Assembly (NCBI RefSeq): GCF_011008565.1
Contig: NZ_JAAIWK010000002.1
Coordinates: 62,001-126,000 of the forward strand
DNA: 64,000 nt
Reading direction: 5' to 3'
From: Heyndrickxia ginsengihumi
GTDB lineage: Bacteria; Bacillota; Bacilli; Bacillales; Bacillaceae_C
Part shown: positions 3,093-61,045 of the stretch, piece by piece
How the letters are laid out: each line of letters opens with the position of its first letter
Position numbering within the stretch: position 1 is the first letter of the stretch
The notes under the pieces: generated by a model
Databases searched by the model: none
Seen by the model: the letters and a program-made list of their open reading frames with translations, nothing else
What the model was told of the DNA's origin: nothing
Program-made: the position numbers and the translations under genes

Positions 3093-4928
3093 TTATGCTT
3101 TTTTCAGCCTTTTAGCCAATTTTTCACGTTCGTTTTTATTTAAAATCTGTTTGCGCAAACGAATAGATTCTGGAGTCACTTCACAATATTCATCGTCATT
3201 TAAATATTCAAGTGCTTCCTCCAATGACATAATTCTTGGCTTTTTAATTACAGATGTTTGATCTTTCGTTGCAGACCGCACATTCGTTGCATGTTTCATT
3301 TTTGTAATATTAACGGTAATATCATTTTCACGTGTATTTTCGCCAACGATCATACCTTCATAAATATCTGTTCCAGGTTCAACAAAAAGGGTACCTCTAT
3401 CTTCTACTTGCATCATACCATAAGTTGTTGCTTTACCTGTCTCCATAGATACAAGAACACCATTACGGCGTCCCCCAACACGACCTGGTTGCAATGGTTG
3501 ATAACTATCAAAGCTATGGTTTAAAATACCATATCCTCTTGTTAACGTCATAAATTCTGTTGTGTAGCCAATTAAACCACGTGCCGGAACATTGAAAATC
3601 AGACGAACTTGTCCATTTCCATTGTTAATCATATCTAGCATTTCACCCTTACGTGAACCAAGCGATTCAATAATAGAACCTGTATGCTCTTCAGGGATAT
3701 CAATTTGTACTCTTTCAACAGGTTCACATTTCACACCATCAATTTCTTTTACAATAACTTGTGGTTTTGAAACTTGCAGTTCAAATCCTTCACGGCGCAT
3801 GTTTTCAATCAAAATAGATAAATGTAGTTCACCGCGGCCAGATACGACCCATGCATCTGGAGAATCTGTATTTTCAACACGTAAACTTACATCTGTTTGC
3901 AATTGTGAACGCAATCTTTCTTCAATCTTTCTTGCTGTTACAAATTTTCCTTCGCGACCAGCAAATGGGCTATTGTTGACAAGGAAAGTCATTTGCAACG
4001 TTGGTTCGTCAATACGAAGAGGCGTTAATGCATCTTGGTGATCAATAGGACAAACAGTTTCACCTACGTTAATATCTTCCATACCGGAAACTGCAATGAG
4101 ATCTCCAGCATTCGCTTCTTGAATTTCTTCCCTTTTCAAACCAAAGAAGCCAAATATTTTCGTTACTCTAAACGTTTTGACAGAACCATCCAATTTCATC
4201 AAAGCAACCTGTTGGCCTACATGCATATTACCTCGGAATACTCGTCCAATTCCGATACGTCCAACATAATCGTTGTAATCAAGAAGTGCCACTTGGAATT
4301 GCAATGGTTCTTCACGATTGTCAACTGGAGCTGGGATATGTTCAATAATGGTTTCAAATAGAACCTGCATATTCTCATTTTGCTTAGCTGGATCTGGATC
4401 AAGGCTTGCAGTTCCATTCATCGCAGAAGCAAATACAACAGGGAATTCTAATTGGTCATCATTAGCATCCAATTCAATGAATAATTCTAATACTTCATCC
4501 ACTACTTCTTTTGGACGTGCAAAATCACGATCAATTTTATTGACAACGACAATTGGTGTTAAGTTTTGCTCAAGCGCCTTTTTAAGTACAAAACGCGTTT
4601 GCGGCATACAACCTTCGTACGCATCTACAACTAGAAGGACACCATCCACCATTTTCATAATTCGCTCTACTTCGCCGCCGAAGTCTGCATGTCCTGGAGT
4701 ATCTAAAATATTAATTTTTTTATCTTGATAATGAACAGCCGTATTTTTAGCAAGAATTGTAATGCCTCTTTCGCGTTCTAGGTCATTAGAATCCATCGCT
4801 CTTTCTTCGACATGCTCATTGGAACGAAATGTGCCGGACTGCTTTAATAACTGATCGACTAAAGTTGTTTTACCATGGTCAACGTGAGCTATAATCGCTA
4901 TATTACGTAAATCTTCTCTTCTTTTCAA
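3093..4928 (-). CDS. typA: Ribosome-associated translational GTPase TypA/BipA
   Basis: At 611 residues this is full length for TypA/BipA, an EF-G-like GTPase that binds 70S ribosomes and matters in ribosome assembly, cold and stress growth. The G domain at the N-terminus shows AHVDHGKTT, RERGITI, DTPGHADF and NKIDRD. A beta-barrel domain, EF-G III/V-like domains and the TypA-specific C-terminal region (near PRIMSLEEALEYLNDDEY) follow. Start is ATG at 4928 with AGGAGG upstream. The position before ylaF matches B. subtilis ylaG. The small genes ylaH and ylaI of B. subtilis are missing here. Confidence 0.97.
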   Translation of the reverse strand: MKRREDLRNIAIIAHVDHGKTTLVDQLLKQSGTFRSNEHVEERAMDSNDLERERGITILAKNTAVHYQDKKINILDTPGHADFGGEVERIMKMVDGVLLVVDAYEGCMPQTRFVLKKALEQNLTPIVVVNKIDRDFARPKEVVDEVLELFIELDANDDQLEFPVVFASAMNGTASLDPDPAKQNENMQVLFETIIEHIPAPVDNREEPLQFQVALLDYNDYVGRIGIGRVFRGNMHVGQQVALMKLDGSVKTFRVTKIFGFFGLKREEIQEANAGDLIAVSGMEDINVGETVCPIDHQDALTPLRIDEPTLQMTFLVNNSPFAGREGKFVTARKIEERLRSQLQTDVSLRVENTDSPDAWVVSGRGELHLSILIENMRREGFELQVSKPQVIVKEIDGVKCEPVERVQIDIPEEHTGSIIESLGSRKGEMLDMINNGNGQVRLIFNVPARGLIGYTTEFMTLTRGYGILNHSFDSYQPLQPGRVGGRRNGVLVSMETGKATTYGMMQVEDRGTLFVEPGTDIYEGMIVGENTRENDITVNITKMKHATNVRSATKDQTSVIKKPRIMSLEEALEYLNDDEYCEVTPESIRLRKQILNKNEREKLAKRLKKA

Positions 4929-10379: not shown

Positions 10380-10404
10380 AAAAAAAAAGCGGCTATAAGC
10401 CGTT
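10380..10404 (-). terminator. Terminator of SR1
   Basis: On the minus strand CGGCT, a 3-nt loop and AGCCG are followed by CTTTTTTTT, 15 nt after the SR1P stop codon. Confidence 0.85.
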
Positions 10405-10566
10405 GAGACATTGACCATTATTCTTCCTCTTCGTGCTGACAATGTTCACATGTTGAGTAGAGAACCGTAACCTTTTCATCTTCTACATGTTCGATCGTAG
10501 CTTCACATGATTGGCATACAATGATTCCCATTTTAATTTCCCCCTAAAAATAATTTGTAAGCGTTT
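10383..10566 (-). ncRNA. SR1 dual-function small RNA
   Basis: The transcript of about 180 nt is inferred from a plausible minus-strand promoter (TTGAAT, 17 nt, TAATAT, ending near 10575), the SR1P reading frame and the terminator. In B. subtilis, SR1 lies at this position between speA and the pdh operon. There it base-pairs with ahrC mRNA and encodes SR1P, and it is repressed under glycolytic conditions by CcpN and to a lesser degree CcpA. The identification rests on the peptide, size and synteny. The antisense region was not matched here. Confidence 0.75.
10418..10531 (-). CDS. SR1P, GapA-binding peptide encoded by SR1
   Basis: A 37-codon ORF starts at ATG 10531 with AGGGGGAAA upstream. It reads MGIIVCQSCEATIEHVEDEK, then a second Cys pair as CEHC, and ends EEEE. 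Four cysteines in two CxxC pairs suggest a small zinc-binding fold. B. subtilis SR1P has the same length class, the same N-terminus (MGTIVCQDCEGTI, as I recall it) and the same location. There it binds glyceraldehyde-3-phosphate dehydrogenase GapA and promotes the GapA-RNase J1 interaction; rnjA is also in this window. The position, motif and SR1 features agree. Confidence 0.85.
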   Translation of the reverse strand: MGIIVCQSCEATIEHVEDEKVTVLYSTCEHCQHEEEE

Positions 10567-10569
10567 ATA
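10555..10569. promoter_or_regulatory. cre-like CcpA site at the SR1 start region
   Basis: TTGTAAGCGTTTATA matches the cre consensus WTGNAANCGNWNNCW at all defined positions but one. It overlaps the predicted SR1 transcription start, a position suited to repression. B. subtilis SR1 is subject to CcpA control, from a more distant site. Confidence 0.6.
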
Positions 10570-10645
10570 TTTATATATTAATACATACTATTTAATTATT
10601 CAAGATAAAAAAGTATATTATATTTATTTAATTGTGACATATAAT

Positions 10646-20254: not shown

Positions 20255-20345
20255 TGATTTCGATCCAAAATGCTGAGCCTCCGTCGCTGTGCACTACACC
20301 CCTGTAATTCTCACCTATTCCGCTTTTCTCACAGGAGCCTTAATC
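20255..20345 (-). repeat. Degenerate family A repeat copy, reversed
   Basis: The complement reads GGCTCCTGTGAGAAAAGCGG, then GACGGAGGCTCAGC and GATCGAAATC, matching the order of family A blocks. The rest of 19970-20560 has no gene. Confidence 0.55.
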
Positions 20346-22134: not shown

Positions 22135-22275
22135 TAAAACTAATCTGAGCGGAAGGATGCAAAACTCCTGCGGGATTAGCGAAATTGCTGAGACCCCGTA
22201 GGCGGACAGCGCCGAGGAGGCTCAGCTTTCGCCCGCGGAAAGCGACATCCCGGAGCAAAACCACTTCATCCTTTT
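22135..22275 (+). repeat. Structured palindromic repeat family A, copy between ykuV and ykuU
   Basis: The GC-rich element folds through GGATG/CATCC, GCGG/CCGC, GCGAAA/TTTCGC and GCTGAG/CTCAGC. It ends in an apical stem GGCG-gacag-CGCC (22201-22213). In the 27 kb copies the apical stem is GACG/CGTC, a compensatory change. Confidence 0.85.
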
Positions 22276-22299
22276 CCTAAACTTTATTGAAAGCAGCCT

Positions 22300-27205: not shown

Positions 27206-27289
27206 AATACCCCTCTATAAGTTTTTCTTATTATTATACACGAAGAAGTCAAGAGATTTCTATTCATCCATGCAACTTTAAATTTAAAT

Positions 27290-27880
27290 GATTATAAAGA
27301 ACTGATCAGAGCAGACTCCTGCGGGATAAGCGAAATTGCTGAGACCCCGCAGACGGACAGCGTCGAGGAGGCTCAGCTTTCGCCCGCGGAAAGCGAGCTT
27401 CCTCGAGCGGAAATCAACCTCTTGTTTTACGAAAAAACAACAAGTATACAAGAACAGCCGTTTTAAAAATTTTCACTTTTTAAAAGAAGCTACCCCCTTG
27501 ATTATAAAGATGATTAGAGCGGAAGGATGTGAGACTCCTGCGGGATAAGCGAAATTGCTGAGACCCCAAAGACGGACAGCGTCGAGGAGGCTCAGCTTTC
27601 GCCCGCGGAAAGCGAGCATCCTGGAGCAGAAAGCAACCTCTTGTTTTACGAAAAAACAACAAGTATACAAGAACAGCCGTTTTAAAAATTTTCACTTTTT
27701 AAAAGAAGCTGCCCCTTGATTATAAAGATGATTAGAGCGGAAGGATGTGAGACTCCTGCGGGATAAGCGAAATTGCTGAGACCCCGCAGACGGACAGCGT
27801 CGAGGAGGCTCAGCTTTCGCCCGCGGAAAGCGAGCATCCTGGAGCGGAAATCAACTACTGCTTTTTATAAAAAAACAGCC
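27290..27880 (+). repeat. Three-copy tandem array of structured repeat family A
   Basis: Units begin at 27290, 27500 and 27718 (periods 210 and 218), each opening GATTATAAAGA. Each has the palindromic GC-rich core; the first two are separated from the next by a near-identical AT-rich spacer (TTGTTTTACGAAAAAACAAC ... TTTAAAAATTTTCACTTTTT). Unit 1 lacks the GGATG/CATCC basal stem. Frames open across the array are repeat artefacts. Confidence 0.9.
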
Positions 27881-39948: not shown

Positions 39949-39979
39949 ATCCTTGGTTAAATAGTGAAACTGTTCCTAA

Positions 39980-40085
39980 AGATTGTTGATTGGAGTAAAA
40001 GGTGCAAGACTCCTTCGGGAAAAACGGGATAGATGAGACACTAAAGGAGTGAAGCAAGCATACTGGAGCATAAATCAACTAACCC
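39980..40085 (+). repeat. Degenerate family A repeat copy
   Basis: GATTGGAGTAAAAGGTGCAA, GACTCCTTCGGGAAAAACGG, GATGAGACAC and TGGAGCATAAATCAAC occur in the family A order. Arms are poorly preserved. Confidence 0.6.
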
Positions 40086-40146
40086 TTTTGTTGAAAAGTT
40101 ACAAGGTTAACGAAAACAGCTATTTAAAAGAATATAGATCATAAAT

Positions 40147-60822: not shown

Positions 60823-60884
60823 TGAAATGTCCTCCTTTTTCACAAGATTTACAAATTTTCTTTGACAAATCTTCCTATAAAGAC

Positions 60885-61030
60885 AAAAAGCAAGACCTCT
60901 GCCCTTATAGGCAAAGGTCTTGCTGGACATTTTTTCAGAATGCCAACAAAGCCGATGACTTCTGAAAAACGAAATCATGTAATGACGACTTTGTTTTAAG
61001 GATGCCAAACATCCTTAACGCTACTCCCCT
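60885..61030 (-). promoter_or_regulatory. yybP-ykoY manganese riboswitch
   Basis: On the minus strand the leader opens AAAGGGGAGTAGCG, has paired blocks GTTAAGGATG/CATCCTTAA, then TCATCGGC and GGCATTC. It ends in a terminator stem GCAAGACCTTTGCC/GGGCAGAGGTCTTGC followed by TTTTTG (60886-60923). This is the yybP-ykoY aptamer and expression platform, known to turn genes on with Mn2+. Confidence 0.88.
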
Positions 61031-61045
61031 TTGACAATTGTCAAA
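61030..61045. promoter_or_regulatory. 16-bp perfect palindrome at the terC leader start
   Basis: TTTGACAATTGTCAAA is a perfect palindrome next to the riboswitch 5' end. A possible promoter (TTGTTA, 17 nt, TACTTT) overlaps it. It may be an operator; it does not clearly match MntR. Confidence 0.45.

Follow-up and report, generated by a model that had tools for sequence, protein, structure and literature searches.

A covarying hairpin at the core of a MITE-like element in Heyndrickxia ginsengihumi and other Bacillales, probably moved by IS1595-family transposases

Intergenic repeats of Bacillus are represented by bcr1-bcr18 of the Bacillus cereus group, of which bcr1, bcr2 and bcr3 are described as MITE-like in the available part of PMC3446304, and by the 74-bp Bhal-1 of B. 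halodurans, a structured family without known function according to an excerpt of PMC2267715. Both resemble the repeat reported here, a hairpin core carried by a small element (the core element), in being Bacillus intergenic repeats, and Bhal-1 also in being structured; the comparison with them was by description, for Bhal-1 on the basis of that excerpt, and the repeat may be identical with one of them. The ERIC/IRU sequences of enterobacteria are similar as well, since ERIC is 127 bp long, intergenic, hairpin-forming and bounded by inverted ends with a target duplication, but it occurs in other bacteria, its termini are TA and its inverted ends are 7 bp long (PMC2229807, in the portion accessible), whereas the core element has GGCT... 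ends and 8-bp duplications; the two were again set apart by description. IS1595-family elements have the same terminal sequences as the core element (in Niallia and several relatives) and the same 8-bp length of target duplication, but the core element encodes nothing and has a covarying hairpin of ~125 nt; ISfinder MITEs lie outside this comparison. A further parallel concerns an insertion sequence found in the loop of the hairpin (the loop element). The IS1182 family, including IS1272, likewise uses inverted repeats as targets, although IS1272 replaces a stem-loop without duplication (both from the available section of PMC5678879), whereas the loop element duplicates 8 bp (8-9 bp in relatives). 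No published description of the core-element family was identified in the literature searched, which consisted mostly of listings and passages and did not include ISfinder. Among the matches listed, literature matches to the sequence letters of the core appear unrelated.

The window, i.e. the whole stretch of DNA that was analysed, comprises 64,000 nucleotides of H. ginsengihumi. The core hairpin is an imperfect foldback of ~125 nt, with one copy at 22.1 kb and three at 27.3-27.9 kb. Scanning the window with a sequence-only model yielded these four cores, two partial matches at 39986-40056 and 20269-20341, and marginal matches. The features are as follows.

22139-22266, + strand: core hairpin, 22-kb copy (model match 22142-22261; folding)
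22267-22298, + strand: 3' arm of the 22-kb element, ending in the type-1-like right end TTTATTGAAAGCAGCC (by eye)
27287-27418, + strand: core, tandem copy 1, with a replaced outer 5' arm (model match 27313-27417, corresponding to model positions 24-128)
27419-27459, + strand: 3' arm of tandem copy 1, with the type-1-like right end AACAACAAG..AGAACAGCC (by eye)
27509-27637, + strand: core, tandem copy 2 (sequence-only model; repeat spacing)
27727-27855, + strand: core, tandem copy 3 (sequence-only model; repeat spacing)
39986-40056, + strand: truncated core (model positions 2-73; E 3e-10)
20269-20341, - strand: weak core match, probably decayed (model positions 23-91; E 1.2e-6)

The interval 22135-22275 of the preliminary description spans the core hairpin and excludes the outer arms of the element. 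The helices that it listed, GCGG/CCGC, GCGAAA/TTTCGC and GCTGAG/CTCAGC, are present at 22139-22266, 27509-27637 and 27727-27855; the basal GGATG/CATCC occurs, as it had said, in three of the four copies, with 27287-27418 lacking the basal GGATG arm, and the apical stem does differ as stated, with GACG/CGTC in the 27-kb copies and GGCG/CGCC in the 22-kb copy. Compared with dinucleotide shuffles, the folding z-scores were -3.32 (22 kb), -4.04 (27.5), -5.09 (27.7) and -3.57 (27.3), and the minimum-energy fold of the 27287-27418 copy itself differs from this hairpin. The tandem copies, together with their outer arms, recur at spacings of 219 and 218 bp; a 3' arm like that of tandem copy 1 ends at 27678 in copy 2, and a shorter arm extends to 27880 in copy 3 (by eye). 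Judged by eye, the recognisable ends of the window copies are right ends only, at 22298, 27459, 27678 and 27880, and no left end was recognisable in the sequence flanking the 22-kb element. The truncated core is flanked by type-1-like ends, from about 39968 to 40120 (by eye). More tandem cores occur elsewhere in the same genome (C63:98005-98340, C29:6835-7174, C6:70019-70350, C7:28-366 and C44:127869-128424), with a spacing of roughly 210-230 bp, as in the window.

The 22-kb copy sits in a gap of about 344 bp between peroxiredoxin and thioredoxin-like genes. The same gene pair is adjacent in 7 other genera, with gaps of about 60-290 bp and without the core; no close empty site was obtained for this copy, as same-genus genomes gave distant peroxiredoxin matches only. 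Among the copies in relatives, 11/180 overlap an ORF of at least 100 aa. Context counts rest on the 131 of 180 copies with two neighbours, of which 41 were convergent, 10 divergent, 48 along and 32 against tandem genes, compared with 70 convergent, 55 divergent and 192 tandem background gaps of at least 150 bp in the same loci, element gaps included. The core element avoids divergent gaps (p 0.008), and its orientation bias beside tandem genes was not significant (p 0.09). No Rfam family matched the core, either at the gathering threshold on the window or at a permissive setting on the region and 17 relatives' loci. Elsewhere in the window, Rfam matches were the SR1 sRNA (10385-10579, - strand) and the yybP-ykoY manganese riboswitch (60868-61041, - strand).

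R1, a sequence-only model built from the alignment of 28 own-genome copies, gave at least 130 core matches at E <= 1e-4 in the H. ginsengihumi genome (150 of 800 candidates scored), for which the BLAST list contained 49. With R1, the core was matched in 58/80 genomes, including this one, and in 37/53 genera (up to 43 candidates scored per genome), and within the same genus it was found in 4/5 genomes. In genomes of named species, a pattern scan returned at least 118 core stretches from many Bacillaceae genera and, among the matches listed, also from Sporosarcina, Lysinibacillus and Ureibacillus. Plasmid records contained 12 and 17 core matches with two queries, and phage records none with one query. 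Outside Bacillales, one core match (E 2e-11) was found in Pisciglobus halotolerans (L183, Lactobacillales).

The proposal that the fold itself is maintained is borne out by strong covariation. The 92 core matches of alignment A3 came from a sequence-only model, hence without fitting to a structure, and the structure tested on them was the RNAalifold hairpin of the 61 near-full rows, i.e. of the same sequences. Changes on both sides were seen in 31/42 pairs vs 17.5 after shuffling, and in 274 cells vs 74.2 after shuffling and at most 55 with slid partners, while paired cells reached 90.9% vs 81.6 shuffled; relatedness in these tests was controlled by weights and slid partners only. When mutual information was calculated without any structure on the 61/92 A3 rows with 105 or more bases (effective number 25), hairpin pairs took ranks 1-5 and 8 of the top 10. 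Furthermore, at least two Watson-Crick types were found in 25/43 pairs among 158 copies that were at least 112 bases long (effective number 36). The preliminary description had named a genome-wide alignment without covarying pairs as the outcome speaking against a maintained fold; covarying pairs were abundant, by tests other than R-scape. Covarying structure alone cannot separate an RNA role from a DNA role. From the 28 own copies alone, RNAalifold predicted a different, weak structure (-16 kcal/mol), which was dropped, its 8-pair helix being without covariation: on the wide alignment it had 1 covarying cell vs 1.0 shuffled, and on one measure its covariation score was reached by only 11/500 shuffles.

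In relatives, many cores lie inside a MITE-like element of ~180-250 bp with inverted ends. From the flanks of relatives, a type 1 end, GGCTSTTTTCGTAAA followed by TTGTTG, and a type 2 end, GGCTSTGTTAAA followed by TGTTGA, could be defined. An end scan recovered 14 elements with 8/8 and 7 with 7/8 matching duplication bases, with target site duplications (TSDs) such as TTTTATAA, AATATTAA and TATACAAT. The core was present in 20/21 of these elements and absent in L193, where positions 3453-3714 have type-1 ends and an exact TSD but no core match, a case suggesting that type-1 ends may carry other cargo. Single-core elements with a TSD of 7-8 of 8 were 179-248 bp from end to end; the core element is small, encodes nothing and has no transposase gene. 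Three composites of 425-509 bp (L196 772-1229, L228 2696-3204 and L219 7275-7699) each had a single outer end pair and one duplication (7-8 of 8), and the cores of L196 and L228 each have next to them another hairpin of like appearance that has diverged.

An exact 8-bp repeat beside GGCT/AGCC ends was found in 17 of 151 copies (from the near-full classes, with flanks of 110 bases that differed upstream) vs a null mean of 0.19 over 200 re-pairings of flanks (maximum 2 exact), and with one mismatch allowed in 28/151 vs 2.45. These duplications uphold one of two readings offered earlier, that of a replicating palindromic element, and mobility of the core element is well supported. In the H. ginsengihumi genome itself, exact TSDs were found in 0/25 copies and a near-exact one (one mismatch) in 1/25, so that mobility there is deduced from the relatives; the own-genome copies look old. 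At fixed end cut-offs, relatives had both ends in 18/126 copies, one end in 26 and none recognisable in 82, the respective counts for the own genome were 2, 7 and 16 of 25, and shuffled flanks gave no end pair. The ends are decayed in most copies, window copies included, which lowers our confidence in the explanation preferred below. An end search of three complete genomes, with the list judged by eye, gave no full-length type-1 element at one mismatch.

Querying plasmids with the type-1 end identified a 1,765-bp element on a plasmid of Niallia sp. Man26 (L268 2501-4265), with ends matching type 1 and the TSD TTTTTAAA. Between these ends lie the gene of an IS1595-family transposase (E 4e-61) and an apparent passenger gene, annotated as DinB. 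On a Priestia flexa plasmid, type-1-like ends 1,303 bp apart, with a 7/8 duplication, enclose ORF pieces that are IS1595-like by eye. IS1595 matches were found in 28/80 genomes of relatives, 17 of them over the cut-off. For type 2, 32 IS1595 loci (two from a separate search) were examined for whatever inverted ends stand beside an exact 8-bp duplication, with no end sequence specified in advance: six had GGCTCTGTTAAA ends (L275, L277, L278, L282, L289 and L295), L288 had an AGCT version of the end, L293 had another end, and 24/32 gave none. The core was absent from all eight IS1595-type loci tested (the plasmid loci L268 and L269 and the six with GGCTCTGTTAAA ends), which, together with the coreless L193, indicates that ends and core can part. 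The own genome contained one decayed IS1595 gene only, with a core elsewhere in its locus. Based on common ends and 8-bp duplications, IS1595-family DDE transposases are the probable movers of the core element.

An IS1182-type element inserts preferentially in the apical loop of the hairpin. In the own genome, 22 contig ends bear an IS end sequence, of which there are two kinds with 11 occurrences each; given these equal counts and the exact 8-bp repeats that pair the flanks, we infer 11 copies of one element, nine of them in a core at one same place and duplicating 8 bp. Eight copies were uniquely paired, six in cores (L047/L074, L048/L073, L052/L072, L053/L071, L054/L075 and L055/L067) and two outside cores, inside other inverted repeats (L050/L068 and L051/L070), while the remaining three per end have the common repeat CGTGCAGC and are mutually indistinguishable. 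Sixteen of the 18 core flanks were among the listed R1 half-matches, and the degenerate L071 and L075 were assigned by eye. In the minimum-energy folds of the rebuilt sites, the duplicated bases lay in the apical loop in 5/8 (L047, L048, L055, L050 and L051) and outside it in L052, L053 and L054. A 151-bp mini-version of the IS was also found inside the core loop of L066.

Insertions at the same place of the core were present in the relatives G007 (2/3 copies), G008 and G072 (the latter two being mini-versions), and the three that were checked had 9-bp repeats; the third G007 copy (L420) is in no core, with no hairpin visible. One G007 copy in a core loop gave an IS1182-family transposase match over the cut-off (351 bits), and another a match below it (242 of 270 bits), for a cut fragment. 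The assembly does not contain the middle of the own-genome copies, and the link is through the end sequence, at 93-96% over 26-30 bp. A stem count on IS1182-type empty sites covered 2 sites only, with stem 4, which about 0.3 of control positions reach. In the accessible part of PMC5678879, structure-dependent transposition is drawn with loop-only duplication among its possible outcomes, in keeping with the 8-bp loop duplications at the core. The core was also found within mini-elements with IS1182-type ends, namely L402 (324 bp, TSD CAAAGAAG) and L412 (317 bp, with TTTTTTTCT, of low complexity, on both sides); by eye, L399 and L396 resemble them, with imperfect duplications. In L402 and L398 the core is accompanied by type-2-like remnants, which suggests that nesting is the source of these mini-elements, a simpler one than separate capture.

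Given these sequence comparisons, we assign a probability of roughly 0.65 to the joint reading of a covarying-hairpin MITE that would be spread by IS1595 transposases, with its fold kept as DNA and its loop targeted by an IS1182-type element. IS1595 transposases would act in trans on the element ends and thereby spread the element, and tandem copies such as those at 27.3-27.9 kb could result from recombination or from joining of element ends. The hairpin might be retained for working as folded DNA (single-stranded or cruciform) in the life cycle of the element, for example by bringing both ends together at the replication fork, and IS1182-type elements would then land in the extruded loop. This reason for the retention of the fold is one that we infer. 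It is rather unlikely that the core is instead an independent module adopted by unrelated DDE families (IS1595-type and IS1182-type mini-elements), whose fold would aid transposition or survival at the replication fork as a transposase-neutral DNA signal, the extruded loop being a landing pad for IS1182-type elements.

A functional RNA (a regulatory element or mRNA stabiliser) that the MITE disperses and selection keeps once it is inserted, in line with an argument made for Yersinia ERIC, could likewise account for the covariation and for conserved unpaired bases such as columns 24, 27, 35 and 60; other B. cereus intergenic repeats are transcribed, and bcr3 is linked to a longer mRNA half-life (PMC3446304, in the part available). 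On an RNA strand, G.U is taken to be tolerated over A.C. Without weighting, G.T outnumbers A.C by 76 to 29 in the covarying pairs, which may indicate one strand, and pair 29-98 is a conserved T.G wobble in 153/158 copies. However, the weighted counts, which exclude this pair, were near equal, at 16.8 to 15.6 for the 12 pairs that covary and 50.7 to 47.0 for the other 30, so that no transcribed strand stands out, and 51 cluster representatives gave 85 to 79; a tRNA control for G.U vs A.C, at 5 to 1, was too small with 9 sequences. As this asymmetry is absent once weighted, no Rfam family matches and orientation beside tandem genes shows no clear preference (48 vs 32, p 0.09), the RNA reading that had been offered earlier loses ground and is improbable. 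The double changes would need no function at all if template switching between the palindrome arms mimicked covariation in an otherwise ordinary MITE, with no selection on the fold, and such changes should be equal on both strands, as seen. Nevertheless, unpaired internal columns are conserved like paired ones (1.04 vs 1.15 bits, p 0.42), several of them being nearly invariant, and arm copying should erase such mismatches rather than preserve them across many genera, which leaves this explanation with a small share of the probability. Strand symmetry and conserved unpaired columns together favour a folded-DNA role over RNA, without proving one. A REP-type element whose mover is a REP-associated (tyrosine) transposase, as the preliminary description suggested, would also be extragenic, palindromic, of high copy number and sometimes tandem, but the 8-bp target duplications, the ends common to IS1595 DDE elements and the size of the core, which exceeds the 20-40 bp given for REPs in the available part of PMC3733652, make it very improbable.

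In kind, the core element is an ordinary bacterial MITE; its unusual features are a non-coding core that is a covarying hairpin conserved across many genera, the presence of this core in more than a single transposon backbone, and its use as a target by further insertions. A fold-preserved, high-copy Bacillales hairpin thereby gains probable movers and defined ends, and could be named in annotation, and the need of a MITE for a folded core is now open to simple experiment. Loop insertions explain many contig breaks of the own-genome assembly, and as natural events they provide material for studying site choice by structure-seeking transposases. Other IS1182-family elements were flanked by 20-26-bp direct repeats, each of them a whole inverted repeat and mostly with a T-run behind it in the manner of an intrinsic terminator, the hairpin thus being duplicated in full; the boundaries of such duplications were clear in 13/40 IS1182-family copies (L349, L351-L358 (G034), L365-L367 (G075) and L368 (G078)).
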